Source: Candidatus Methylopumilus sp. (GTDB lineage Bacteria > Pseudomonadota > Gammaproteobacteria > Burkholderiales > Burkholderiaceae_B). From it: DNA of 54,717 nucleotides. Of this stretch, positions 7,344 to 22,811 are shown piece by piece. The position numbers and the translations under genes are program-made. Location: assembly GCA_021738045.1 (NCBI GenBank), contig JAIPCU010000002.1, positions 1 to 54,717 on the forward strand, written 5' to 3'. Below the pieces are notes generated by a model that was given only the letters and a program-made list of their open reading frames with translations, made no database searches and was not told the DNA's origin. The stretch's first letter is position 1. Every line of letters begins with the position of its first letter.

Positions 7344-8888
7344 TCAGGGTTTGACGCCGTAACCACCTCCGCCCGGCAAGCCTAGCTCGAGAATATCGCC
7401 CTCGACCATATCGACTACGCCTTTTGGATGTTCGACTGCCTGACCATTGAGTAACACATGGCCAGTGCGCCCCGCTTGTCCGCCTTCGATACCTTTCGCG
7501 GGTACGCGTGTTCGTTCTGTTAATAAAGACACGCGCAGGCGACCGGTCCAGCGCGACTGAAACGAAACTTTTTGTCCCATACCGCCGCGATGGATACCCT
7601 CGCCTCCCGAGCCTTCGATCAGGCTCTTGCAACCGAAGAGCACCGGCGAGAGCATCTCTGCGACTTCGATCGGTGTGTTTGAAATATTGGCCGGAAATCC
7701 TGAGGTGGGTGGTCCATCACGATCACGCATCGCCCCCATGCCGCCATTAAAAAAGAGAATGCTCGAAAACGAGGTACCAAGCGCAGGATTCACGCCGCGC
7801 ATCAGCACCGACCATAGCGGCGTGCCACTGTCGGCCTGCACACGCTCAGGCATCACCTTGGCAAGCGCTTCAAAGACCGCAGCTTGTAGTTGATGTCCGA
7901 TCAAATGCCTGGCACCCACTGCGGCGGGCGGCTTCGCATTGACGATGGTCCCTTCAGGGGCGATCACCTTAAATAAGCGGGTGAAGCCGTCGTTGTTCGG
8001 AATACCTGGCGACAACAAGCATTTGAACGGGTAGATCGTATAGGCATAGGTATGGTTGAAGGTCTCATTGATACCAAATCTCACCTGCGCTGTACTGCCG
8101 CTGTAATCGACCGTCACGCCCTCGTGGCTGACGGTAATCTTGGCTTGAATCTTGATCCGCTCATCCCAACCATCTGACTCGACCGAGCCATGATAGACAC
8201 CCGGTGGAATCTTTCGTAACTCACGCAAGGCCGCATCTTCAGAGGCCTTAAAAATTGCACCAGCAATCTCGTTGATATCGCCTAAGCCGTACTCTTCTAA
8301 TAACTCTGTTAAACGACGCTCGGCGACGCGCAACGCCCCTACCTGGGCTTCGATATCACCACGCACTTGTTGCGGCAAGCGCACGTTGGCTTCAAGCATC
8401 TGCATGACCCACGGGTTAAACACCCCAGCCTCGGCAAGCTTGATCACTGGAAACCGAATCCCTTCTTCATACACTTCGCCCGCATCGGCAGACCACTGAC
8501 GACCCCCCACATCCGACAAATGTGCCACCGCCATCGCGAATGCCACTAAGCGGTCACCAAAAAAGATAGGCGCAACCATCGTGGCATCAGGCAAATGGCC
8601 AGTGCCGATCCAAGGGTCATTGGTAAACAGAATATCGCCTGGCTTCAAAGACTCTTGGGGAAACACTTTCAAGATCCCTTTGAGCGACAAAGGTGCTGTC
8701 CCGATGAAGCCTGGGATACTGAGAGCCGACTGCGCGACTAACCGCGCTTCGGGATCGAGCAGCACGCAGGCAAAATCATTCGACTCTCGCACGACTGTTG
8801 AGAAGGAGGTGCGTTTAAGCGTTGCCCCGGCCTCGTCGGTAATCGCGATCAGCCTGTTCCAGTAAATCTCTAGATCAATCGGGCTCAT
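7344..8888 (-). CDS. Hydantoinase B/oxoprolinase family protein
   Basis: MSPIDLEIYWNRLIAITDEAGATLKRTSFSTVVRESNDFACVLLD, FTNDPWIGTGHLPD, GGGGYGVKP C-terminus. Start placed at the internal Met giving the family N-terminus. Confidence 0.9.
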   Translation of the reverse strand: MSPIDLEIYWNRLIAITDEAGATLKRTSFSTVVRESNDFACVLLDPEARLVAQSALSIPGFIGTAPLSLKGILKVFPQESLKPGDILFTNDPWIGTGHLPDATMVAPIFFGDRLVAFAMAVAHLSDVGGRQWSADAGEVYEEGIRFPVIKLAEAGVFNPWVMQMLEANVRLPQQVRGDIEAQVGALRVAERRLTELLEEYGLGDINEIAGAIFKASEDAALRELRKIPPGVYHGSVESDGWDERIKIQAKITVSHEGVTVDYSGSTAQVRFGINETFNHTYAYTIYPFKCLLSPGIPNNDGFTRLFKVIAPEGTIVNAKPPAAVGARHLIGHQLQAAVFEALAKVMPERVQADSGTPLWSVLMRGVNPALGTSFSSILFFNGGMGAMRDRDGPPTSGFPANISNTPIEVAEMLSPVLFGCKSLIEGSGGEGIHRGGMGQKVSFQSRWTGRLRVSLLTERTRVPAKGIEGGQAGRTGHVLLNGQAVEHPKGVVDMVEGDILELGLPGGGGYGVKP

Positions 8889-8907
8889 GCCAGACTCCTT
8901 TGTTGTT

Positions 8908-11034
8908 TCATGCTGCACGACCTTGGCGGGCCCCGAGAGTGATTCTTAGATTACCGTGAGCATCTAAGGTAAAGACATCGCCTGGACCAATCACCACAGT
9001 CGAGCCGGGTTGTTCAACCAACGCGGGACCCTCATAACGTTGCGCGGCGCGCAACTGCTCGAGCGACAGCACCGGTGTTTGTACATAGCCCTCGATATCC
9101 GGAAAAAATACCTGCCGCGAACGCTCGGCCTGTGCAGGCTGGTCGACGAGCGCTTGCGACGAACGCACCTCGGCATTGAGTGCCGCACTTGCAGAGGCCT
9201 CGACCCGCCAATTCACAGCTTCGACCCGCTGCCCGACCAGTTTTCCGCCAAAGCGGGCCGCATAAGCCTGGGCAAACGAAGCTTCGATGGTGCTTTGTTC
9301 AGATTGCACCAAGTGCGCAGGCAATTCAGTTTCGACTTCAAACCCTTGGCCAACGTAGCGCATATCCGCGCTACGACGAAACGTGATCCTCTCGCGCGCG
9401 ACACCCGCAGACGCTAATTCTTTGCTCAAGGCATCTTCCATTCCTTGCAGTAGCGCCTCAATCGCAGACCAGTCCATCTCGCTTAAGCGCGCATAACGCG
9501 TGCGAACCATGTCCATTTTCATTGGGGCAACCAGCAAGCCAAAGGCAGAAAACACACCTGCATTGGCTGGTACCAACAAATCTGAACAACCACTGCGACG
9601 TGCGACTTCGCGCGCGTGAATCGGGCCTGCGCCACCAAAGGCGAGCAAGGTATAACGTCGAATGTCGCGGCCATTTTCGACTGCATGAATTTTTGCGGCC
9701 ACTGCCATATGCTCGCAAACAATCCGATGAATCCCGTTGGCCGCTTCGACAATACTCAACCCTAAGGGGCGGGCGATATGTTCTTCGATCGCTTGCTCGG
9801 CTAAATCTAGACGCAAACTCACGGCACCGCTTAACGTACCTTGTGGATCTAAATAACCCAATACCAGCGCAGCATCGGTGACTGTGGGGCGAGTGCCGCC
9901 CAGACCATAACATGCAGGCCCCGGGCTTGACCCTGCGCTATGCGGGCCAACTTTCAACAAACCTGTCGTATCAACGTGAGCGATGCTGCCACCGCCGGCG
10001 CCGATCTCAATCAGGTCGATCGTAGGCAAACGCACCGGCAGCCCGCTGCCTTTTTTAAACCGTTGCTGACGCGCCGCTTCAAACTCTGTCGTAATCGACG
10101 GCCGCCCGTTCGAAATCAAACAGGCTTTGGCTGTGGTGCCGCCCATGTCAAAGGCCATCACGTTCGGGGTCTTTGACACCCGAGCAGAATGCGCCGCGCC
10201 CAAGGCACCCGCTGCCGGCCCCGACTCAAGCATACGAATCGGCATACGCTCGCCAAGCTCACGAGAAATGACACCACCGTTTGACTGCATGATGTGCAAA
10301 GTCGCGTTCAGCCCAATTGCCCGCAGGCCGTCTTCAATCGCCCCGAGGTAACTGCCAACCATGGGCATGACACAGGCGTTGAGCACAGTCGCGACGGTGC
10401 GCTCGTATTCACGGATTTCACCTAACACTTCAGACGATAGTGAAATCGACAACTCGGGCGCGATCCGTTGTGCGATCGCTTTCACACGCTGTTCGTGAGC
10501 GGGATTGGTAAAGCTATGTAAAAAGCATACGGCGATGGCACGCACCCCAGCATCGCGTAACTGACAGACGACACGCTCGACCTCTTGGTCTTGCATGGCA
10601 ATCACGACCTCACCTGCAGCATCGACACGTTCGCGGACTTCGGCCCGCAACGCGCGCGGTACGATCGCGTCAGGCCCTGGCGCCGTCAAGTCATACAAGT
10701 CGTAGCGCAACTCGCGTGCGATTTCGATCACATCACGAAACCCTTCGGTTGTGATTAAGCCGGTGACAGCACCCTTACGCTCAATCACAAGATTAGTGAC
10801 CGCAGTCGTGGCCCCCACCACGACGTCGGTGACTTGCGAAAGGGTCAGGCCGTGCTCTTTTAACAAAGCCAGTAAGCCCAAACGAATGGGCATCACGACA
10901 TCTGGCGCACCCGTCAGAACCTTTGAGGTGAAGATAGTGCCATCGGTACCGAGCAATACCAAGTCGGTAAAGGTGCCCCCGATATCAAAGGCAAAACGAT
11001 ACTGCTGGCCAGAAGCTAACGCCTGAGCACTCAT
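8908..11034 (-). CDS. Hydantoinase A/oxoprolinase family protein (ATP-dependent)
   Basis: FDIGGTFTDLVLL, MAFDMGGTTAKACLI, GAGGGSIAHVD, TLLAFGGAGPIHA motifs. Confidence 0.92.
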   Translation of the reverse strand: MSAQALASGQQYRFAFDIGGTFTDLVLLGTDGTIFTSKVLTGAPDVVMPIRLGLLALLKEHGLTLSQVTDVVVGATTAVTNLVIERKGAVTGLITTEGFRDVIEIARELRYDLYDLTAPGPDAIVPRALRAEVRERVDAAGEVVIAMQDQEVERVVCQLRDAGVRAIAVCFLHSFTNPAHEQRVKAIAQRIAPELSISLSSEVLGEIREYERTVATVLNACVMPMVGSYLGAIEDGLRAIGLNATLHIMQSNGGVISRELGERMPIRMLESGPAAGALGAAHSARVSKTPNVMAFDMGGTTAKACLISNGRPSITTEFEAARQQRFKKGSGLPVRLPTIDLIEIGAGGGSIAHVDTTGLLKVGPHSAGSSPGPACYGLGGTRPTVTDAALVLGYLDPQGTLSGAVSLRLDLAEQAIEEHIARPLGLSIVEAANGIHRIVCEHMAVAAKIHAVENGRDIRRYTLLAFGGAGPIHAREVARRSGCSDLLVPANAGVFSAFGLLVAPMKMDMVRTRYARLSEMDWSAIEALLQGMEDALSKELASAGVARERITFRRSADMRYVGQGFEVETELPAHLVQSEQSTIEASFAQAYAARFGGKLVGQRVEAVNWRVEASASAALNAEVRSSQALVDQPAQAERSRQVFFPDIEGYVQTPVLSLEQLRAAQRYEGPALVEQPGSTVVIGPGDVFTLDAHGNLRITLGARQGRAA

Positions 11035-12409: not shown

Positions 12410-13021
12410 TCAGGGCTCACCCACCCGACGCCCGCGCGCCTTTAACGCTTCGCCGCCCGGACGCAGCGAGGTGCGGCCACTTTCGTTATTACCCTCGACC
12501 AATCGCCCCAGAAGCTCCATGAACACCTGACGATCTGCGGGATTGAGCGGACTGAGCAATTGCTGTTGCGACAACTGCATATCTTTTTGATAGCGTTGTA
12601 CGAATTTTTTTCCGTCTGGCGTAGCCAAACATAATTTACGTCGACGGTTCTGCGGATCGACGACCCGCGTAAGCAGGTTGCGGTCTTCAAGGCGTCTGAG
12701 AATTTCGGCAACGTTGGCTGGATCGAGCCCAAGCTCAGCACCAAGGGTGGCCTGATCGATACCGGGCCGGTTGATTAAAATGCTCAGCAAGCCAAACTGC
12801 ACTGGGGTCACTTGCCCATCGGCCACGCGTGCCGAAAACATGGCCACATGAATTTGATGCAATCTGCGCACTAAGTAGCCTGGACGATCCCAAATCGTGT
12901 GGTTGGCGGCAGGGGTAGCAGCCACTTTGGATACCGCGGGCACAACCACCAGAGCAGGCGGCGAACTCGCCGCCGCTTTGCGGCCCAACTTCGCTTGCAC
13001 CACACGCACACTTTTCGTCAC
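12410..13021 (-). CDS. MarR family transcriptional regulator
   Basis: Winged-helix MarR pattern: TPVQFGLLSILINRPGIDQATLGAELGLDPANVAEILRRLEDRNLLTRVVDPQNRRRKLCLATPDGKK. Confidence 0.88.
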   Translation of the reverse strand: MTKSVRVVQAKLGRKAAASSPPALVVVPAVSKVAATPAANHTIWDRPGYLVRRLHQIHVAMFSARVADGQVTPVQFGLLSILINRPGIDQATLGAELGLDPANVAEILRRLEDRNLLTRVVDPQNRRRKLCLATPDGKKFVQRYQKDMQLSQQQLLSPLNPADRQVFMELLGRLVEGNNESGRTSLRPGGEALKARGRRVGEP

Positions 13022-13135: not shown

Positions 13136-14410
13136 TTACAACAAACTATCGGCCCAAATATTACGGGCCCAGCCCCAGGCATACACGCCTTCTAACTCAC
13201 TGGGGGCCGCCGACACGCCGCCCGAACCCGCGACAGTTTTATACGTCTTGTCTGACGCACTGTACTGATGAACGCTGGCCACATGCACGACTTTTGTGGC
13301 ATCGACAAAGCTATAGCAAGTGTTGTTTAACACCGGCTGAGGGTTAAGGGCAAACCCTCGTAACTCAGCCACAATGGCGGCCGCAGCGACCTTGGCATGC
13401 TGATTTGCCATATGTGCCGACTTGGGCATAAACGCAGCGTTTTGTGTCGAATCCCCCAAAATATGGATATCTTTGGCTGCCGTTGATTCAAAGTTCAAAA
13501 AATTCACCTGCGCCCAGCGTTTATTTGAGTTCGCTAAGCCCGCTTGCACAATTAACTCAGCCGCACGCATGCGTGGCAAAACATTTAACACGTCAGCTTG
13601 GACCGAGTCTTGAATATCAAAGCGAAGCATCTTGGTCGCACCCTCGACTCTGACCAGATTATGCGATGCGCGATATTCAATCATGCCTGGGTACAAATCG
13701 GCCCAAGCCTTCTTAAACAAGCCGGGCTTTGACACGACATCTTCGTTCGCATCCAGAATCAAAACCTTAGATTTAGGTTTATGCTTTTTAAAATATGCGG
13801 CAACTTGGCAAGCTCGCTCATACGGGCCGGGCGGGCATCTAAAGGGTGCCTCTGGAATGCTCAGCGCAAACACGCCACCATCCGGCATGTCTTGTAGTTG
13901 CTTTTGTAATGCAAGTGTTTCAGGCCCCGCCTTCCAAGCCTGCAGCGTTGCCCCCAACTGGTTCGCCTGCACCAAGCCTTCGATGCTATTCATCATCAAA
14001 CCAATGCCTGGCGACAACACTAATTTATCGTAATTCAGCGTCGTGCCAGCGTGTAATTGCACAAGCTTTTTAAGCGGATCAATCGCAGTCACCCAGTCGC
14101 GCACCAACGAGACACCGTGCTGCTTTTGCAACGCGTCGTACGAAACGGTCAACTCAGGCAGCGTGCTTGACCCCCCCAGTACCAGGTTAGAAAGAGGGCA
14201 AGACACGAACGACAACTCGGGTTCAATCAAGGTGACGTTTGCATTGCCCTCAGACCAGAGGCGAAGATATTTTGCCGCCGTAGCCCCCCCATAACCGGCC
14301 CCAACCACCAGTACTCGAGCCGACTTTAAATCGGCACGTACAACTGCTGGAAACGCTAGACTAGCGCCCAACAGTGCTCCGGTGCGCTGTAAAAACTGAC
14401 GACGTTTCAT
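13136..14410 (-). CDS. FccB/SoxF-type flavocytochrome c sulfide dehydrogenase flavoprotein, Tat-exported
   Basis: MKRRQFLQRTGALLGASLAFP Tat signal; VLVVGAGYGGATAAKYLRL; SCPLSNLVLGG with redox Cys; RCPPGPYERACQVA; HILGDST. Confidence 0.87.
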   Translation of the reverse strand: MKRRQFLQRTGALLGASLAFPAVVRADLKSARVLVVGAGYGGATAAKYLRLWSEGNANVTLIEPELSFVSCPLSNLVLGGSSTLPELTVSYDALQKQHGVSLVRDWVTAIDPLKKLVQLHAGTTLNYDKLVLSPGIGLMMNSIEGLVQANQLGATLQAWKAGPETLALQKQLQDMPDGGVFALSIPEAPFRCPPGPYERACQVAAYFKKHKPKSKVLILDANEDVVSKPGLFKKAWADLYPGMIEYRASHNLVRVEGATKMLRFDIQDSVQADVLNVLPRMRAAELIVQAGLANSNKRWAQVNFLNFESTAAKDIHILGDSTQNAAFMPKSAHMANQHAKVAAAAIVAELRGFALNPQPVLNNTCYSFVDATKVVHVASVHQYSASDKTYKTVAGSGGVSAAPSELEGVYAWGWARNIWADSLL

Positions 14411-14434: not shown

Positions 14435-15364
14435 CTAAGGGCGAACGCCTGGGCTCTCGAGCAGCATAGCGCGTGCACGCCAAGCTAAAAACAATTCAAG
14501 TTCAAGCAACTCGGTTGAGCCAAACGCAAAAGGCTCTGCGCGAACGCCTACCAGACAATTACGCAAGCGTCGCTCGAGCGAACCCACCGTCTGCCATTCA
14601 AGCCGGTAGATTGGATACGCTGTTGGATGCGCCTGAGGAATCGGATTGCCGGCAAGTTTTTGCCCAGCGCGCTCGGCATGGCATTGAGCACAAGAGAGGT
14701 TTAACTGACCCATGCGCTGATTAAATAAACGTTGGCCTGCGGCTAGCGAAGCCTCGTTGGCCGCGGTACGCTCAACGGTAATCGGCATGCCTTTAGACTG
14801 AGTCGCGACAAAAGCCGAAAGTGCCAGTAATGGTTTGCTCTCAGCAGCAAAGGGCGTTGCGCTTTGCTGCTCAGTGCGACACTGATTGATGCGCCCCGTC
14901 AGGCTGAGTAGTTGACCCGCAGTACTGACCTTAGGGAAACTTGCTGCGACACCTTTCATCGATACCGTAGCATCACCATGACACGAGGCACAAGATTGAT
15001 TTTTTTTACCCGCGATCTCTTGCCACAAGACCTGCCCATCCAAGACCGCAAACGTGGCCGGATTTAAGAGAGGATCATCTTGCATTGCCTTGGTATCAGG
15101 CGACATCAAGACGTAACTTGATTGACGCTCAGCCCCAACCGGATCGGCTTGCGACGAGGCGTGACAGGGCAGCAAAATAGCGAGCGAAAAAAGAATAGCT
15201 AGCGACAGCCGCTTTTCGAGCAGACAAGACAAAAAAACTTGCCACACCCAAGGCATCTCGTTGCTCTCAAGCCTCTCGTTGCGCTGAAGCCTCTCGCTGC
15301 GCTGAAACATCTCGTTGCGCTGAAGCCTCTCGTTGCTCTGAAGCGCCTGGCTGCTCCGAAACAT
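14435..15364 (-). CDS. soxA: SoxA-type diheme c-type cytochrome (sulfur oxidation)
   Basis: Two CxxCH motifs (CASCH, CAQCH) and terminal NCLVGVRAEPFAFGSTELLELELFLAWRARA characteristic of SoxA. ATG at 15364 overlaps the soxZ stop (TGATG); ATG at 15256 immediately before the signal peptide is an alternative start. Confidence 0.87.
   Translation of the reverse strand: MFRSSQALQSNERLQRNEMFQRSERLQRNERLESNEMPWVWQVFLSCLLEKRLSLAILFSLAILLPCHASSQADPVGAERQSSYVLMSPDTKAMQDDPLLNPATFAVLDGQVLWQEIAGKKNQSCASCHGDATVSMKGVAASFPKVSTAGQLLSLTGRINQCRTEQQSATPFAAESKPLLALSAFVATQSKGMPITVERTAANEASLAAGQRLFNQRMGQLNLSCAQCHAERAGQKLAGNPIPQAHPTAYPIYRLEWQTVGSLERRLRNCLVGVRAEPFAFGSTELLELELFLAWRARAMLLESPGVRP
15254..15361 (-). repeat. 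18-bp x 6 tandem minisatellite, in frame at the 5' end of soxA
   Basis: Units (+ strand): catctcgttgctctcaag / cctctcgttgcgctgaag / cctctcgctgcgctgaaa / catctcgttgcgctgaag / cctctcgttgctctgaag / cgcctggctgctccgaaa. Confidence 0.95.
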
Positions 15365-15663
15365 CACGTCACAGTGAGCGTACTGGTTGTGCTCGAAGCG
15401 TAGCCATTGTCGCCAGACCACTTGAATTCTAGTGTGCCGCTTTCGATCGCAGTGGTTGTAAACACAATCAACGGATTCGCACCCATTGCCGGGTGCAACT
15501 CGACACGAAACACCTCAACGCCATTATAGGTACAACGAAAATCGCGAATGATATCGCGAGGAATCCGCTGACCGGTCTCAGTGTGCCGAAAACCAGACTC
15601 CATATCGTGTTGCACAATGATACGGATCTCAAGAATTTCGCCCTTTTTAGCCGTTGTGGGCAT
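15364..15663 (-). CDS. soxZ: SoxZ thiosulfate oxidation carrier complex subunit
   Basis: MPTTAKKGEILEIRIIVQHDMESGFRHTETGQRIPRDIIRDFRCTYNG...; typical SoxZ length and motifs. Confidence 0.88.
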   Translation of the reverse strand: MPTTAKKGEILEIRIIVQHDMESGFRHTETGQRIPRDIIRDFRCTYNGVEVFRVELHPAMGANPLIVFTTTAIESGTLEFKWSGDNGYASSTTSTLTVT

Positions 15664-15694
15664 CGTGACAATCGTACGAGAGGTCTTATTCACA

Positions 15695-16138
15695 TTACAC
15701 CTCAGTGCAGGCCGCAAGCGTCACTAAGGTCGCTGCGTCACCTTGCCAAAAAGAACCATCACCCATTTGTGCGATTGCCCTGACGCGTTGCGAATCGCCC
15801 AAACGAATGCGGGTGGTAATCGCTGCGCGCCCGGCGCGAGGCGACAAGAAAAAACTCACAACGTTGGGCAAAGGATTACCTTCAGCCACGATATGAATGG
15901 CTCGCACATAATCTGCCTCAGTCATCGGGCTTTGTACAGACACCTTCATGGTGACCAGATTACCGTTCTCAACCAGCGGCGGGATCTCGAGCGTCACGCG
16001 ACCGACCTGAGCCGAGCGACCACCCAAAATTTTGTCAACGGCTTGCGTGGCATCGTCGACCGTCGCAAACGCATTCAATGTTGGCAACACGCTGGCGGCT
16101 GCCGCACTTATCACAAAGGTTCTTCGAGTGACTGTCAC
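15695..16138 (-). CDS. soxY: SoxY-like sulfur carrier protein with non-canonical C-terminus
   Basis: Tat-like N-terminus TRRTFVISAAAASVL; SoxY fold (IPPLVENGNLVTMKVSVQSPM...HIVAEGNPLPNVVSFFLSP); ends LVTLAACTEV instead of GGCGG. Confidence 0.83.
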   Translation of the reverse strand: MTVTRRTFVISAAAASVLPTLNAFATVDDATQAVDKILGGRSAQVGRVTLEIPPLVENGNLVTMKVSVQSPMTEADYVRAIHIVAEGNPLPNVVSFFLSPRAGRAAITTRIRLGDSQRVRAIAQMGDGSFWQGDAATLVTLAACTEV

Positions 16139-16575
16139 GGTTTTAAGCTCACTAAAAAAGCTACAACGTCTTCGATGTCTTGCGCCGTCAAGATTGCTTT
16201 ACCTGCAAACTGCGGTGCAATCCGCGTAAAACCCTCTGCACGAAAATAAGAGGGCATGATGGTATTTGGATTAAAGCGACTCGCATCGACGATGCGAGCA
16301 CGCAACTGCTCTGCCGACAAGGCTGCCGAACTAGCCGCCAAATCTGGGGCAAGCGTGCCCTGAAAACGTTCTTCAGGAAACGGCCCGCTATGACACAGTA
16401 TGCATAAACCGCCCTGACGACTCAACACCAGAGCGCGCCCACGTACCGTATCCCCCGGTTGCCCCGACAATGAAGCGTTGATCGCATCACCGACAAAGAC
16501 CTGGGCTTGCAGGGGGCTGGGGCAGGCAAGCCAGAAACTGGCCACTAACGCCCATCCAGCACCCCATTTCGTCAT
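16135..16575 (-). CDS. soxX: SoxX-type monoheme c-type cytochrome
   Basis: Sec signal; GRALVLSRQGGLCILCHSGPFPEERFQGTLAPDLA; RFNPNTIMPSYFRAEGFTRIAPQFAGKAILTAQDIEDVVAFLVSL. Confidence 0.87.
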   Translation of the reverse strand: MTKWGAGWALVASFWLACPSPLQAQVFVGDAINASLSGQPGDTVRGRALVLSRQGGLCILCHSGPFPEERFQGTLAPDLAASSAALSAEQLRARIVDASRFNPNTIMPSYFRAEGFTRIAPQFAGKAILTAQDIEDVVAFLVSLKP

Positions 16576-18761
16576 ACCAAAGTCATACCACTATTTTTCA
16601 AAGGCACAGTGCGCAAACGCTTACCCGTTGCACGGTAAATCGCGTTGAGCACAGCGGGCGCTGCCACACAGATCGTGGGCTCGCCGATACCGCCCCAGTC
16701 TTTGCCACCGCCTTCGATAATAATCGTCTCAACCGGAGGCATCTGCGCCAAGCGGATCGAGCCAAACGTATCAAAATTTTTCTGTTCGATACGGCCGTCT
16801 TTCACTGTGCACTCTTCTTCAAACAACGCCGACAATCCGTACACAAACGAGCCAGACACTTGACGCTTAATTTGCGCAGGGTTCACGGCGTAGCCACAAT
16901 CGGTGGCAGCCACGATGCGATGAATTTTTACCTTGGTGCCGTCGGTCACAGATAGTTCGCACGCTGCGGCCACATAGCTACCAAACGCCATCATTTGCGC
17001 AACACCCCGAAACACGCCAGGCGCAGCAGGTTTTGTCCAGCCAATACCATCTGCCACCGCGTTGAGCGCGGCAAGATTACGGGGAAACTTGCCCATAAAC
17101 TTACGACGAAACTCAACTGGATCTACACCCGCAGTTTCAGCAAGCTCATCCATAAAACATTCGATGAAGATCGCGTTTTGGTTAATGTTCACACCACGCC
17201 AAAAACCTGGTGGCACGGCCGTATTACGCATCGCATGATCAATCAACTGATTCGGAAACTCGTAGCCGAAGCCATGCTCTCCACCGTCGAACACACCTTG
17301 AAAGACGATAGGATCACGGCCTTTCTGTTGCGCGACGATTGCAGGGCGCACCGCCGCCAAGATCGATTGCCCCGACAGGCGCATATGCACGCCGGTCAAG
17401 TTTTTATCCTTATCGAAGGCGCCTGTTAGCTTGCACATCATGACCGGATGATAACGACCCTGAGTCATATCTTCTTCGCGTGTCCAGATGAGTTTGACCG
17501 GGGTGCCAGGCATTTGCTTAGCAATATTGACCGCCTGGGTGGTGTAGTCTTGAAACGCGCCACGACGACCAAACCCGCCACCTAGATTAATTTTGTACAC
17601 CTCACACTTTTCAGCGGGCAAGCCTGAAGCCGCAATCACAGCAGCTAACGAGGCCTCGCCGTCTTGCGTTGGTACCCAGGCTTCGCAACGTTCTGACGTC
17701 CACTTCGCCGTCGCGTTCATTGGCTCCATGGGGGCGTGATTCAAAAATGGATAAAAGTAAGTCGCCTCGGTCTTTTTAACGGCAGCGGTCAGAGCAGCTT
17801 TGGTATCACCACGCGTGTTACCGACAAACGCCTGCTCTGCAGTCAAGCCCTCTTCAAGCGTCTTGGCGATCGAAGCACTTGATAGTGTTGCATTTGGGCC
17901 CTCGTCCCACACAATCGGAAGTTGATCGAGCGCTGTCTTAGCAATCCAAAACGTCTCGGCCACGACAGCAACGGCGGTCTCACCGACCTTCACCACCTTC
18001 TTGACACCCTTCATGCCAGTCACTTTGCTTTCATCAAAGCTTTTGACCTTGCCACCAAAAACGGGGCATTCTTTGATGGTCGCAACCAACATGCCAGGCA
18101 TCGTTAAATCGATGCCATAGACCTGCTTGCCGGTCACCTTATCGGCAAACGTATCGATACGGTTCATCGACTTGCCGATGATCTTCCACTGTTTGGGATC
18201 TTTCAGCGTGATCTCGGTGGGGACAGCAATCTTTGAGGCGGCCTCAGCCACTTTGCCGAACGCCACTTTACGACCGCTTGGCTTGTGCGTGATCACACTT
18301 TCTGCAGCCACACACTCTGCAACCGGCACCTTCCATTCATCTGCAGCCGCTTGCACCAACATCATGCGGGCAGCAGCGCCGCCTTTGCGAACATATTGTT
18401 CTGAAGTACGAATACCGCGGCTACCGCCTGTTGAAAAATCACCCCAGACGCGCTTGCGCTTGAGGCTCTCGCCGGGCGTTGGGTACTCAACCGTGACTTT
18501 GCTCCAGGCACACTCGAGCTCTTCGGCCACCATCTGAGCCAAACCAGTAATGGTGCCCTGCCCCATCTCTGAGCGCACGACGCGCACGATCACGGTGTCA
18601 TCGGGCTTAATAACGACCCATGCGCCGATTTCCGGGGTGGCACCTGCGGCAAGCGCAGAGCCGATAAAAGGAATTTGCAAACCAAGTGCCAGTCCAGTAC
18701 TGACGGCTGTTGTGCCAACAATAAACTGACGACGTGAAGGATTCGGGACGCGTGCATTCAT
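16572..18761 (-). CDS. Xanthine dehydrogenase family molybdopterin-binding subunit, IorB-like, Tat-exported (paralog 1)
   Basis: MNARVPNPSRRQFIVGTTAVSTGLALG Tat signal; VVRSEMGQGTITGLAQMVAEEL; GGGFGRRG; PPGFWRGV; GGIGEPTICVAAPAVLNAI. Overlaps soxX start by 4 bp (ATGA). Confidence 0.9.
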   Translation of the reverse strand: MNARVPNPSRRQFIVGTTAVSTGLALGLQIPFIGSALAAGATPEIGAWVVIKPDDTVIVRVVRSEMGQGTITGLAQMVAEELECAWSKVTVEYPTPGESLKRKRVWGDFSTGGSRGIRTSEQYVRKGGAAARMMLVQAAADEWKVPVAECVAAESVITHKPSGRKVAFGKVAEAASKIAVPTEITLKDPKQWKIIGKSMNRIDTFADKVTGKQVYGIDLTMPGMLVATIKECPVFGGKVKSFDESKVTGMKGVKKVVKVGETAVAVVAETFWIAKTALDQLPIVWDEGPNATLSSASIAKTLEEGLTAEQAFVGNTRGDTKAALTAAVKKTEATYFYPFLNHAPMEPMNATAKWTSERCEAWVPTQDGEASLAAVIAASGLPAEKCEVYKINLGGGFGRRGAFQDYTTQAVNIAKQMPGTPVKLIWTREEDMTQGRYHPVMMCKLTGAFDKDKNLTGVHMRLSGQSILAAVRPAIVAQQKGRDPIVFQGVFDGGEHGFGYEFPNQLIDHAMRNTAVPPGFWRGVNINQNAIFIECFMDELAETAGVDPVEFRRKFMGKFPRNLAALNAVADGIGWTKPAAPGVFRGVAQMMAFGSYVAAACELSVTDGTKVKIHRIVAATDCGYAVNPAQIKRQVSGSFVYGLSALFEEECTVKDGRIEQKNFDTFGSIRLAQMPPVETIIIEGGGKDWGGIGEPTICVAAPAVLNAIYRATGKRLRTVPLKNSGMTLV

Positions 18762-18771
18762 GGTTGACCCC

Positions 18772-19224
18772 TTAAGCTTTAGCGACTGAGTGAATCGCGG
18801 CGCGAACTTCTTGGAAGCTGCCGCAACGACAAATGTTGGTGATCGCCGCATCAATATCGGCATCAGTAGGCTTAGGTTTTTTAGCCAGCAAATCAGTCGC
18901 TGCCATCAACATACCTGACTGACAAAACCCACACTGAGGAACTTGATGATCGATCCAGGCTTGCTGCAGCTGTGTCAATTTGCCATCTTTGGCCAGGCCT
19001 TCAATCGTTTGAATTTGTTTGCCCACAGCGACACTCACAGGCAACACGCACGAGCGAATGGCTGCGCCATCCATCATGATCGTACAGGAGCCACATTGAG
19101 CAATGCCGCAACCGTACTTTGTGCCGGTCAGACCGACTTGCTCTCGAATGACCCACAAGAGTGGGGTATTTGGATCGACATCCACGCTATGCGCTTTGCC
19201 GTTTACGATCAACTGAATCGCCAT
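18772..19224 (-). CDS. 2Fe-2S small subunit, IorA-like (paralog 1)
   Basis: GTKYGCGIAQCGSCTIMMDGAAIRSC; PQCGFCQSGMLMAA; ITNICRCGSFQ. Confidence 0.92.
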   Translation of the reverse strand: MAIQLIVNGKAHSVDVDPNTPLLWVIREQVGLTGTKYGCGIAQCGSCTIMMDGAAIRSCVLPVSVAVGKQIQTIEGLAKDGKLTQLQQAWIDHQVPQCGFCQSGMLMAATDLLAKKPKPTDADIDAAITNICRCGSFQEVRAAIHSVAKA

Positions 19225-19344: not shown

Positions 19345-21591
19345 TTACGCCAAGGTCAAACCATGCTTGCGCAAGGGCAGATCTCTTGCGGGTTTACCCG
19401 TAGCTGCGAAGATTGCGTTCAAGACTGCGGGCCCGACAACACAGATCGTAGGCTCGCCAACACCCCCCCAGAAGTCGTGTGTCGGCACCAACACGCACTC
19501 GACCTTCGGCGTATCCTTAAGTTTTGCTAAGGGATACGAGTGGTAGTTGTTTTCTTTGACTTGCCCGTTTTCAATCGTGATGTCTTCATTAAAAATTGCA
19601 GATAAAGCCATGACAACCGAGCCCTCAATCTGGGCTTTGACCTGCGAAGGGTTCACAAAGTGCCCCGAATTCAAAGCAAACACCATGCGATGCACTTTGA
19701 CCTGACCGCTGGCCGACACCGACACCTCAGCGGTGGCTGCCGAGTAGCTGCCATAGCCCATAAACTGCGCAATGCCGCGATGCTGTCCTGCCGGTAGCGG
19801 CTTACCCCAATCACCTTTCTCAGCAACCGCATCTAAGACAGCGAGGTGTTTGGGATGGTTTTTCATGAGATCGCGACGAAACGCCAAAGAATCACGGCCG
19901 GCTGCACGCGCGCACTCTTCAATGAAGCATTCCATGTAAATACCGTTTTGATTGGTATTGACGCCCCGCCACGGTCCAACCGGCACATGACTATTGCGCA
20001 TCACGTACTCGGTTAAGAGCGACGGAAAGGTGTAACCCAATTGCGCATCGCCCGGCGCTTCGTAAAACCCTTGCAGTTGCCGCACATCTTTATTGTTTCT
20101 AATGGCTGACGGGTTTAAATAAGCATTGATTGACTGGCCAGAGACGCGAACATGAAACCCCGTTAAATTACCTTTGTCATCAAGACCTGCAGACATCTTG
20201 GCCATCGAAATCGGGCGAAAGAAGTCGTGTGTCATATCCTCTTCGCGACTCCAGACCATCTTAATCGGAATGTTCGGGTACAACTTGGCAATCGCCACGG
20301 CGTGATGCATAAAATCTTGTGTACCGCCGCGTCGGCCAAGCCCACCGCCCAAGTCCATCGTCTTGATGTCACAATTTGCCAAGGGCAGACCCGACGCTTC
20401 AGACAGCGCGGCCATCGAGGCTTCGGCGTTTTGCGTCGGCACCCAAGCGTAGGCGCGATCACCGCTAATCTGCACGACGCAATTCATCGGCTCCATCGTG
20501 GCATGAGCCAAAAACTGGCTGCTGTACACCGCCTCAACTTTTTTGGCTGAGGCTTTGATGGCGGCCAGTGCGTCACCTTCTTTACGCTGCCAATAGTCGC
20601 CCTCGGCGCCCAAACCATCTTTTAAGGCTGCCGCGATTGTCGTGCTCGAGACCTTTGCGTTCTGACCTAAATCCCAATCAATCAAAAGATTATCCAAGGC
20701 GTTTTTTGCACGCCACCACGTGTCAGCCACCACAGCCACAGTTGAATCATTGACTTTGACCACACCTTTCACACCGCGCATGGCTTTGACCTTTGATTCA
20801 TCAAAGCCCACGAGCTTGCCGCCGAACACCGGGCAGCTTTTGACTGCTGCGCATAACATTCCTGGGAGACGTAGGTCGATACTAAAGACCTTGGCACCGT
20901 TCACCTTATCTGCGGTATCCAACCGCGCAACAGCAGTCCCTGCAATCTTCCAGTCTTGAGGCTTTTTCAAAACAATCGATTTTGCTTCGGGGGGCGTTAG
21001 CTTTGCCGCCGCATCAGCGACCTTGCCGTAGCTCACGGTACGTTTTGTCTGGGCATGCGTGATGACGCCTTGGCTGACCGTTAATTCTGACACAGGCACT
21101 TTGAACTGCTCAGCAGCCGCTTGCAAAAGCATCAACCGCGCCGCAGCACCACCGCGGCGCACATAGTCGTGCGAATCACGAATACCCCGGCTACCGCCAG
21201 TCGCCATTGCACCCCAGGCACGCTTGCGGGCTAAATTTTGCCCCGCAGAAGGCGCTTCATAGGTCACTTTTTTCCAGTCGCAGTCAAGCTCTTCGGCGAC
21301 CAACTGGGCTAGTCCTGTGCGCGTGCCCTGCCCCATTTCAGAGCGAACGATACGAATCACCACGGTATCGTCGGGTTTAATCACCACCCACAGGTTCACC
21401 TCGTCAGCAGTCAACGCAGGCGCAGTGGCCTGTGCCAGGGCTGGACGCGCATGCATCAACCCAAGTGCCAGACCTGCGCCAACGGTGGCGGTGCCGATCA
21501 AAAACTGTCGACGAGCAGGGTGTAAAGGGCTGTTGGCTAGACGCTTGACATTGCGTGTTGCGCCAGGGGCCTTACTGATGTGGTTTGTCAT
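19345..21591 (-). CDS. Xanthine dehydrogenase family molybdopterin-binding subunit, IorB-like, Tat-exported (paralog 2)
   Basis: PARRQFLIGTATVGAGLALG signal; VRSEMGQGTRTGLAQLVAEEL; GGGLGRRG; REEDMTHDFFRP; VGPWRGV; GGVGEPTICVVGPAVLNAI. Confidence 0.9.
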   Translation of the reverse strand: MTNHISKAPGATRNVKRLANSPLHPARRQFLIGTATVGAGLALGLMHARPALAQATAPALTADEVNLWVVIKPDDTVVIRIVRSEMGQGTRTGLAQLVAEELDCDWKKVTYEAPSAGQNLARKRAWGAMATGGSRGIRDSHDYVRRGGAAARLMLLQAAAEQFKVPVSELTVSQGVITHAQTKRTVSYGKVADAAAKLTPPEAKSIVLKKPQDWKIAGTAVARLDTADKVNGAKVFSIDLRLPGMLCAAVKSCPVFGGKLVGFDESKVKAMRGVKGVVKVNDSTVAVVADTWWRAKNALDNLLIDWDLGQNAKVSSTTIAAALKDGLGAEGDYWQRKEGDALAAIKASAKKVEAVYSSQFLAHATMEPMNCVVQISGDRAYAWVPTQNAEASMAALSEASGLPLANCDIKTMDLGGGLGRRGGTQDFMHHAVAIAKLYPNIPIKMVWSREEDMTHDFFRPISMAKMSAGLDDKGNLTGFHVRVSGQSINAYLNPSAIRNNKDVRQLQGFYEAPGDAQLGYTFPSLLTEYVMRNSHVPVGPWRGVNTNQNGIYMECFIEECARAAGRDSLAFRRDLMKNHPKHLAVLDAVAEKGDWGKPLPAGQHRGIAQFMGYGSYSAATAEVSVSASGQVKVHRMVFALNSGHFVNPSQVKAQIEGSVVMALSAIFNEDITIENGQVKENNYHSYPLAKLKDTPKVECVLVPTHDFWGGVGEPTICVVGPAVLNAIFAATGKPARDLPLRKHGLTLA

Positions 21592-21602
21592 GGTCAGCCT
21601 TC

Positions 21603-22100
21603 TTATGCTTTAGTAACGCCAGTGGTTGCGTAATCATTTAACACGTCGGCCAATTGTTTTTGGCCCGCCGCGACATGGATACCGTCACGGATACGTTGAT
21701 AGGTGCCGCAGCGACAGATATTGGTCATCGCAGCGTCAATATCAGCATCGGTGGGCTTGGGCACGCGCTTGAGCAGGGCGACCGCGGCCATGACCTGACC
21801 CGACTGACAGTAGCCACACTGGGGGATATCAAGCGCAATCCAGGCCTGTTGGATCGCATGGCTGGAGTCTTTAGAGAGCCCCTCGACGGTGGTGATCGCC
21901 TGACCGGCAGCACTGGCCACCGGGATCGAACACGAGCGCACCAATTCACCGTTCAGTTGCACAGAACAGGCGCCACATTGAGCGACACCGCAGCCATATT
22001 TAGTACCAGTCAACCCGAGCACTTCTCGCAACGCCCACAACAAAGGCATATCTGGTTCAACGTCAATATTGTGAACGGTGCCGTTTACTTTGAGTTCCAT
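21603..22100 (-). CDS. 2Fe-2S small subunit, IorA-like (paralog 2)
   Basis: [53 protein letters not shown]. Confidence 0.92.
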
Positions 22101-22310: not shown

Positions 22311-22811
22311 TTAATGCATATGTAAACGTGCAAAACTCTCAAAATCATGTGCAGGGATTGGCCGGCTATACAAATACCCTTGAAACGCCAGGCAACCGAT
22401 ATCTTGCAAGAACTCTTGCTGCCCTAAGGTTTCTACGCCCTCGGCTATGACCTCTAAACCCAAAGAGTGTCCAAGCGTCACGATGGTGCGTGCGATCGCC
22501 GCACCGTGGGCATCGGTCAACATATCGCGCACAAACGACTGATCGATTTTGAGCTGATCAAGCGACAAGCGCTTCAAATAATTGAGCGACGAATAGCCCG
22601 TACCAAAGTCATCCAGCGACACCGCGATACCAATATCTTTAAGCGAAGCAATCTTGCGATTAACATCACCCAAATCATTGACAAGCATGCTTTCAGTAAG
22701 TTCGAGCTTCAGCCGTTCGGGTGGTGCTCCACTGGCTTTTAGCGCACTCAGCAAACACTCAACTGAGCTAAGATCATGAACAGTGCAGGCGCTATGTATC
22801 CCTACCCTCAA
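22311..22811 (-). pseudogene. C-terminal fragment of an EAL-domain (c-di-GMP phosphodiesterase-like) protein, 5' truncated
   Basis: LKLELTESMLV, SLDDFGTGYSSLNYLKRLSLDQLKIDQSFVRDM, EVIAEGVET, GYLYSRPI. The N-terminal half of the domain (including the EAL signature) and any sensor are absent. Confidence 0.78.

Follow-up and report, generated by a model that had tools for sequence, protein, structure and literature searches.

A SoxY paralogue with an AAC-type carrier arm lies beside IorAB-type molybdenum hydroxylase genes and apart from soxB

The window cluster and the arm of its SoxY

The stretch of DNA analysed (the window; 54,717 nucleotides, contig JAIPCU010000002.1 of Candidatus Methylopumilus sp., assembly GCA_021738045.1) carries on its minus strand the genes iorA1-iorB1-iorA2-iorB2-soxX-soxY-soxZ-soxA-soxF, followed by marR, preA, hyuA, and hyuB. 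The features of this cluster are collected in Table 1. No soxB was found at the window locus.

Table 1. Positions in the window of the genes and features of the sox-ior cluster, with the matches on which they were named
Feature	Position	Strand	Basis
MarR-family regulator, after soxF	12410..13021	-	PF01047 6.6e-13
SoxF-like flavocytochrome c sulfide dehydrogenase flavoprotein	13136..14410	-	PF21706 5e-43, PF09242 7e-23
SoxA, two CxxCH motifs	14435..15421	-	TIGR04484 205.8 bits, cut-off 110
SoxZ	15364..15693	-	PF08770 4.5e-24; TIGR04490 76.7 bits, cut-off 76
SoxY paralogue with AACTEV arm	15695..16138	-	TIGR04487 189 bits, PF13501 4e-27
C-terminal arm TLAACTEV and stop codon	15695..15721	-	relatives: [A/S/P/G]-A-C-x-(mostly E)
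SoxX c-type cytochrome	16135..16575	-	TIGR04485 74.9 bits, cut-off 61
IorB2, IorB-type molybdopterin hydroxylase subunit, Tat signal	16572..18863	-	PF02738, PF20256
IorA-type 2Fe-2S subunit	18772..19224	-	PF01799, PF00111
IorB1, second IorB, 51% identical to IorB2	19345..21591	-	Pfam and sequence comparison
Second IorA	21603..22100	-	Pfam

SoxZ clears the TIGR04490 cut-off only narrowly, and its gene, judging from homologues, likely starts at a GTG directly past the soxY stop. Between soxZ and soxA lies a tandem repeat (15254-15369, about five copies of an 18-base unit) through which the long soxA ORF runs; the real start of soxA is probably downstream of this repeat, near 15250.

IorAB has the MoCoBD domains and the 2Fe-2S subunit that define it as an XDH-family molybdenum hydroxylase, and the nearest solved chain to IorB2 was 8gy3_C, the large subunit of an aldehyde dehydrogenase (1.6e-67). 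Two IorAB pairs stand in tandem in the window (19345-22100 and 16572-19224); IorB1-type genes also occur alone, in Polynucleobacter genomes without IorB2 (L151, L152). Upstream of iorA1, an EAL-domain ORF (22311-22811, minus strand) matches positions 92-236 of 236, the N-terminal part of the domain being missing, and is possibly a remnant.

Genes for hydantoinase A/B occur close to the cluster in the window (7344-11034) and in genomes of the family f58 (L042, L043). HyuAB, PreA and MarR were considered as members of the system and rejected: synteny, including that of marR beyond soxF, was held only among close relatives, and HyuAB at the two f58 clusters are only about 29% identical.

The window soxY (16138..15695) has a GTG start and encodes a protein of 147 amino acids with a Tat-like RR signal at its N-terminus. 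Its assignment to SoxY in the original prediction was borne out by Pfam (PF13501, E 4e-27) and by the solved structures nearest to it, which are the SoxY chains 2oxg/2ox5. The C-terminus is DAATLVTLAACTEV, with D-A-A-T-L-V-T-L-A-A-C-T-E-V as the last residues. Translation of the ORF confirmed the predicted non-canonical arm: the carrier residue Cys144 is a lone cysteine, fourth from the end, with no flanking Gly and with Glu in the tail.

When compared with NCBIfam models, the protein matched TIGR04487, 'SoxY-related AACIE arm protein', at 189.1 bits (cut-off 172) over positions 2-146 of 146. It remained below the cut-off of canonical SoxY, TIGR04488 (89.3 bits, cut-off 125), and far below that of the quinoprotein-associated SoxYZ carrier, TIGR04557 (61.1 bits, cut-off 140); soxZ is here a separate gene. 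The window SoxY is thus a member of a catalogued, uncharacterised family, and its altered arm is not new.

Relatives were collected with peptide patterns from which the arm was left out. An [A/S]AC arm with its Cys was present in all 80 relatives from this collection scan, in forms that include SACTEMV, AACTEV, AACTEEVI, AACLEE.. and AACIIG; plasmid copies widen the range to PACAEN and GACVETG. Over the 93 loci gathered in total the arm Cys was invariant and the arm took the form [A/S/P/G]-A-C-x-(mostly E). The AACTEV end itself was identical in independent MAGs whose proteins range from 96 to 66% identity. A frameshift, an assembly error or a degenerating pseudogene at the end of soxY, the first of which the original prediction had named as a possible refutation, was ruled out, because the same or similar ends recur in many independent assemblies and genera.

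The arm had also been predicted to be stiffer than usual. This found no support: AlphaFold models gave a low-confidence coil beyond the last strand for the window arm and the canonical GGCGG arm alike, with mean pLDDT of the last block at 53 for the window SoxY and 63 for the canonical SoxY of the same genome.

Linkage to IorAB, separation from SoxB, and phylogeny

We examined the neighbourhood of AAC-arm soxY at 93 loci, comprising the 80 collection-scan relatives, 12 whole-genome neighbourhoods and the window. IorB adjoined the gene in 88 of the 93 (75/80 and 12/12 for the first two sets); the exceptions were three true absences and two truncations at contig ends. At 34 canonical loci with a GGCG[G/A] arm, no IorB was found beside soxY, and SoxB adjoined SoxY in most of them. 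The co-occurrence of the AAC arm with IorAB, proposed earlier as a check, is therefore clear. The three true absences belong to Polynucleobacter-group genomes in which SoxXYZA and the arm are unchanged and adjacent IorB2 is absent; they have only distant IorB copies elsewhere (52-54% identical), of the IorB1 type in the two examined.

The gene set is fixed as IorA-IorB-(SoxF)-SoxX-SoxY-SoxZ-SoxA, and its order is retained in Alpha- and Betaproteobacteria as well as in plasmid copies. The 80 relatives fall mainly in Polynucleobacter, Zwartia, Sheuella, Comamonadaceae, Bradyrhizobium, Afipia, Reyranella, and Hyphomonas, and the set was also found whole on plasmids of Neorhizobium, Methylobacterium, and Roseomonas. 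It has been carried as a module between the two classes and onto plasmids. Public entries for Neorhizobium galegae and Methylobacterium plasmids give the SoxY the product name 'SoxY-related AACIE arm protein' and place it in the same operon. Of 399 genomes examined in the phylum, 16 encode a protein scoring above the TIGR04487 threshold. Besides the window genome, these are four f5/g6 genomes of about 2 Mb and eleven f49 genomes of 6-9 Mb.

Some individual loci may be mentioned here. The plasmid pNgVX of Neorhizobium galegae (L171), typed as conjugative, holds the entire IorAB-SoxFXYZA module. MAGs titled Bordetella parapertussis (L052, L067) hold a freshwater betaproteobacterial cluster, and their species label seems doubtful. 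In Hyphomonas polymorpha (L128, 11594-17067), XdhC-like and molybdopterin-biosynthesis-like genes, recognized by eye, directly follow soxA. Odd SoxY ends, VATNGCK and VAASGCGM, were seen beside SoxF at L162 (G217) and L150 (G082), respectively.

The original prediction had also drawn on a missing soxB, and this held for the locus but not for the organism. The window genome (2.96 Mb, 82% complete) has a second SoxY on contig C203, in a cluster ordered soxC-soxD-soxY(GGCGG)-soxZ-soxA-soxX-soxB, where soxC, soxD and soxX were named by eye. Since this second cluster is complete, the organism does have soxB and a full canonical sox system, beside which the window cluster stands as a paralogous module. 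The separation is general. SoxB was found beside AAC-arm soxY at none of the 80 collection-scan loci, and in whole genomes it was distant or absent. It occurred elsewhere in 19 of 23 named genomes carrying the module, where it could consequently act in trans. No SoxB at all was found in five Hyphomonas-type genomes that carry the module, namely Hyphomonas polymorpha and four members of one family (f58) that are each about 100% complete, so the module can persist without it.

In a SoxY tree computed with the arm columns removed, the AAC-arm proteins formed a single clade (SH-aLRT 94), separate from canonical SoxY including the copies of the same genome. Because this clade is monophyletic, the link of the arm with IorAB may amount to one event in evolution. 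The SoxA proteins of these loci likewise formed a single clade (support 100), apart from the canonical copies of the same genome. They retain the heme-Cys ligand, as aligned to 1h31/2c1d, and the two invariant arginines.

Fourteen residues before the ligand Cys, the SoxA of AAC loci has Glu (90) or Asp (1) in all 91 readable cases. Among 31 canonical SoxA, 29 have Lys, Ser, Arg or Thr at this position and two, both from Bradyrhizobium, have Glu. By alignment on the spacing from the ligand Cys, this position is equivalent to Arg109 of TsdA, and the window SoxA has Glu there. Arg109 contacts thiosulfate in TsdA, and its counterpart in SoxA is stated as Lys or Ser (PMC4423706). The Glu was considered as proof that thiosulfate is excluded and rejected as such, because of the two canonical Bradyrhizobium SoxA; it serves as a clade marker and a hint rather than as proof of a different substrate.

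A candidate role for the module

The reading that we favour, while holding it to be somewhat short of probable, is that AAC-arm SoxY serves as carrier in a dedicated, SoxB-independent module made up of SoxAX, SoxYZ and IorAB, often with SoxF. In the canonical pathway, SoxAX forms an S-S bond oxidatively onto the carrier, SoxB hydrolyses off the sulfonate group, and the sulfane is oxidised by SoxCD, a relative of sulfite oxidases (PMC5336275). The window locus keeps SoxAX and SoxYZ, lacks SoxB and SoxCD and has IorAB in addition, from which we infer that IorAB would replace SoxCD/SoxB. By homology and by its retained heme-Cys ligand, SoxAX would load the arm cysteine with a thiol or a sulfane compound. 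The arm would then offer this cargo to IorAB, predicted to be an aldehyde-dehydrogenase-type molybdenum hydroxylase of the periplasm. IorAB would oxidise it with water as the oxygen source and pass the electrons to c-type cytochromes. SoxF would deal with released sulfide or sulfane. More speculatively, the A/S-A-C-x-E arm in place of GGCGG might reflect that entry into SoxB is no longer needed and that the arm has to fit IorAB; a cargo less anionic than thiosulfate would suit such an arm, and a small organic thiol or a thioaldehyde might be one.

On sequence grounds, the points that make this module the best reading are the distinct curated family, the IorB adjacency, the SoxY and SoxA clades, the plasmid units, the SoxB-less genomes, the Glu/Asp of SoxA and the kinship of IorB with a periplasmic aldehyde dehydrogenase. 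The three genomes without an adjacent IorB2, the SoxB encoded elsewhere in most module carriers, the Glu in two canonical SoxA and the possible single origin of the arm-IorAB link count against it. The conserved arm, its co-occurrence with IorAB and the absence of SoxB from the locus thus agree best with another partner or cargo for the carrier, as originally predicted. The wider proposal, that a SoxB-free periplasmic pathway is widespread in freshwater Burkholderiales (Polynucleobacter and relatives), Bradyrhizobium and Hyphomonas, in which an XDH-family molybdenum hydroxylase acts on SoxYZ-bound cargo, probably organosulfur, we regard as doubtful.

It is unlikely, in our estimate, that the cluster merely unites two functions in one regulon, with SoxXYZA and SoxF capturing sulfide or sulfane on the carrier and IorAB, independently of SoxY, oxidising an aldehyde or heterocycle of its own. 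The three genomes that keep SoxXYZA without IorAB in the cluster would fit such an arrangement, as would the two IorAB pairs of the window, the solitary IorB1 of other genomes and the aldehyde dehydrogenase nearest to IorB among solved structures. The tight gene order across both classes and on plasmids, and the lack of any IorB next to the canonical SoxY examined, speak against it.

We think it rather unlikely that AAC-arm SoxY is a redundant carrier of thiosulfate or polysulfide that receives its cargo from its own SoxAX and gives it up in trans to the SoxB of the canonical cluster, with IorAB incidental. The ligand Cys and arginines kept by the SoxA of AAC loci are consistent with this, and a SoxB is at hand in the 19 genomes and in that of the window. 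However, Hyphomonas-type genomes hold the module without any SoxB, and the AAC arm differs from the canonical one at every conserved position flanking the Cys. Moreover, the second soxY of B. diazoefficiens, which likely encodes an AAC arm, is dispensable for thiosulfate oxidation (PMC5748708).

A carbon cargo is improbable. The arm thiol would form a thiohemiacetal with an aldehyde, and IorAB would oxidise this to a thioester, in parallel with quinoprotein-linked SoxYZ-like carriers. IorB does resemble a periplasmic aldehyde dehydrogenase, and a part in carbon metabolism has been suggested for divergent SoxYZ next to alcohol, methanol and formate dehydrogenases (PMC11237559). However, sulfur is indicated by the frequent SoxF and by the unfailing presence of SoxAX, which is known to form S-S bonds oxidatively (PMC4423706), and the window SoxY scores only 61 of the 140 bits needed for TIGR04557.

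Comparison with known systems

In the literature we found no open paper discussing the AAC/AACIE arm, TIGR04487 or IorAB together with SoxY, no published function for TIGR04487, and no biochemistry for any protein of the AAC-arm module. Likewise, no AAC-type C-terminus was found in a SoxY proven in standard thiosulfate oxidation, which the original prediction had given as its refuting case. In B. diazoefficiens, thiosulfate oxidation depends on soxY1 alone and not on soxY2 (PMC5748708); soxY2 is likely the AAC-arm gene. A large SoxY phylogeny dropped sequences without 'GGC' as of poor quality (PMC11237559), a filter by which the AAC-arm clade would have been lost. For Polynucleobacter QLW-P1DMWA-1, sox genes in common with Bradyrhizobium japonicum and absent from Cupriavidus were reported in 2012 (PMC3308952, Fig. 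7), with a role in inorganic sulfur oxidation presumed and unconfirmed. Pnuc_1154-1157 are probably the four-gene SoxXYZA block. The passages of that paper on these genes give the inorganic-sulfur reading; the arm, the IorAB link and the absence of SoxB go undiscussed in them.

Four points are new here: the linkage to IorAB is fixed, SoxB lies apart, SoxY and SoxA are each monophyletic, and SoxA has changed. The IorAB link, the separation from SoxB and the near-fixed SoxA change make the role of the second soxY testable in culturable bacteria. If the favoured reading is true, inferring thiosulfate oxidation in freshwater metagenomes from an AAC-arm soxY, or from its soxA or soxX, would mislead.

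Among known systems, TIGR04487 is the closest: it has the same arm type, a full-length match and, in plasmid records, the same operon, the window member having AACTEV. To our knowledge, the solved periplasmic molybdopterin aldehyde dehydrogenase 8gy3, to which IorB is homologous over nearly its full length, has no Sox partner. Canonical SoxY (TIGR04488; Paracoccus pantotrophus, PDB 2ox5/2oxg) shares the fold, Tat-type export and the single arm Cys, whereas the window protein has AACTEV instead of GGCGG and an IorAB neighbour instead of SoxB/SoxCD. The quinoprotein carrier TIGR04557 is likewise a SoxY-type protein beside a dehydrogenase, but differs in being a fused SoxYZ.
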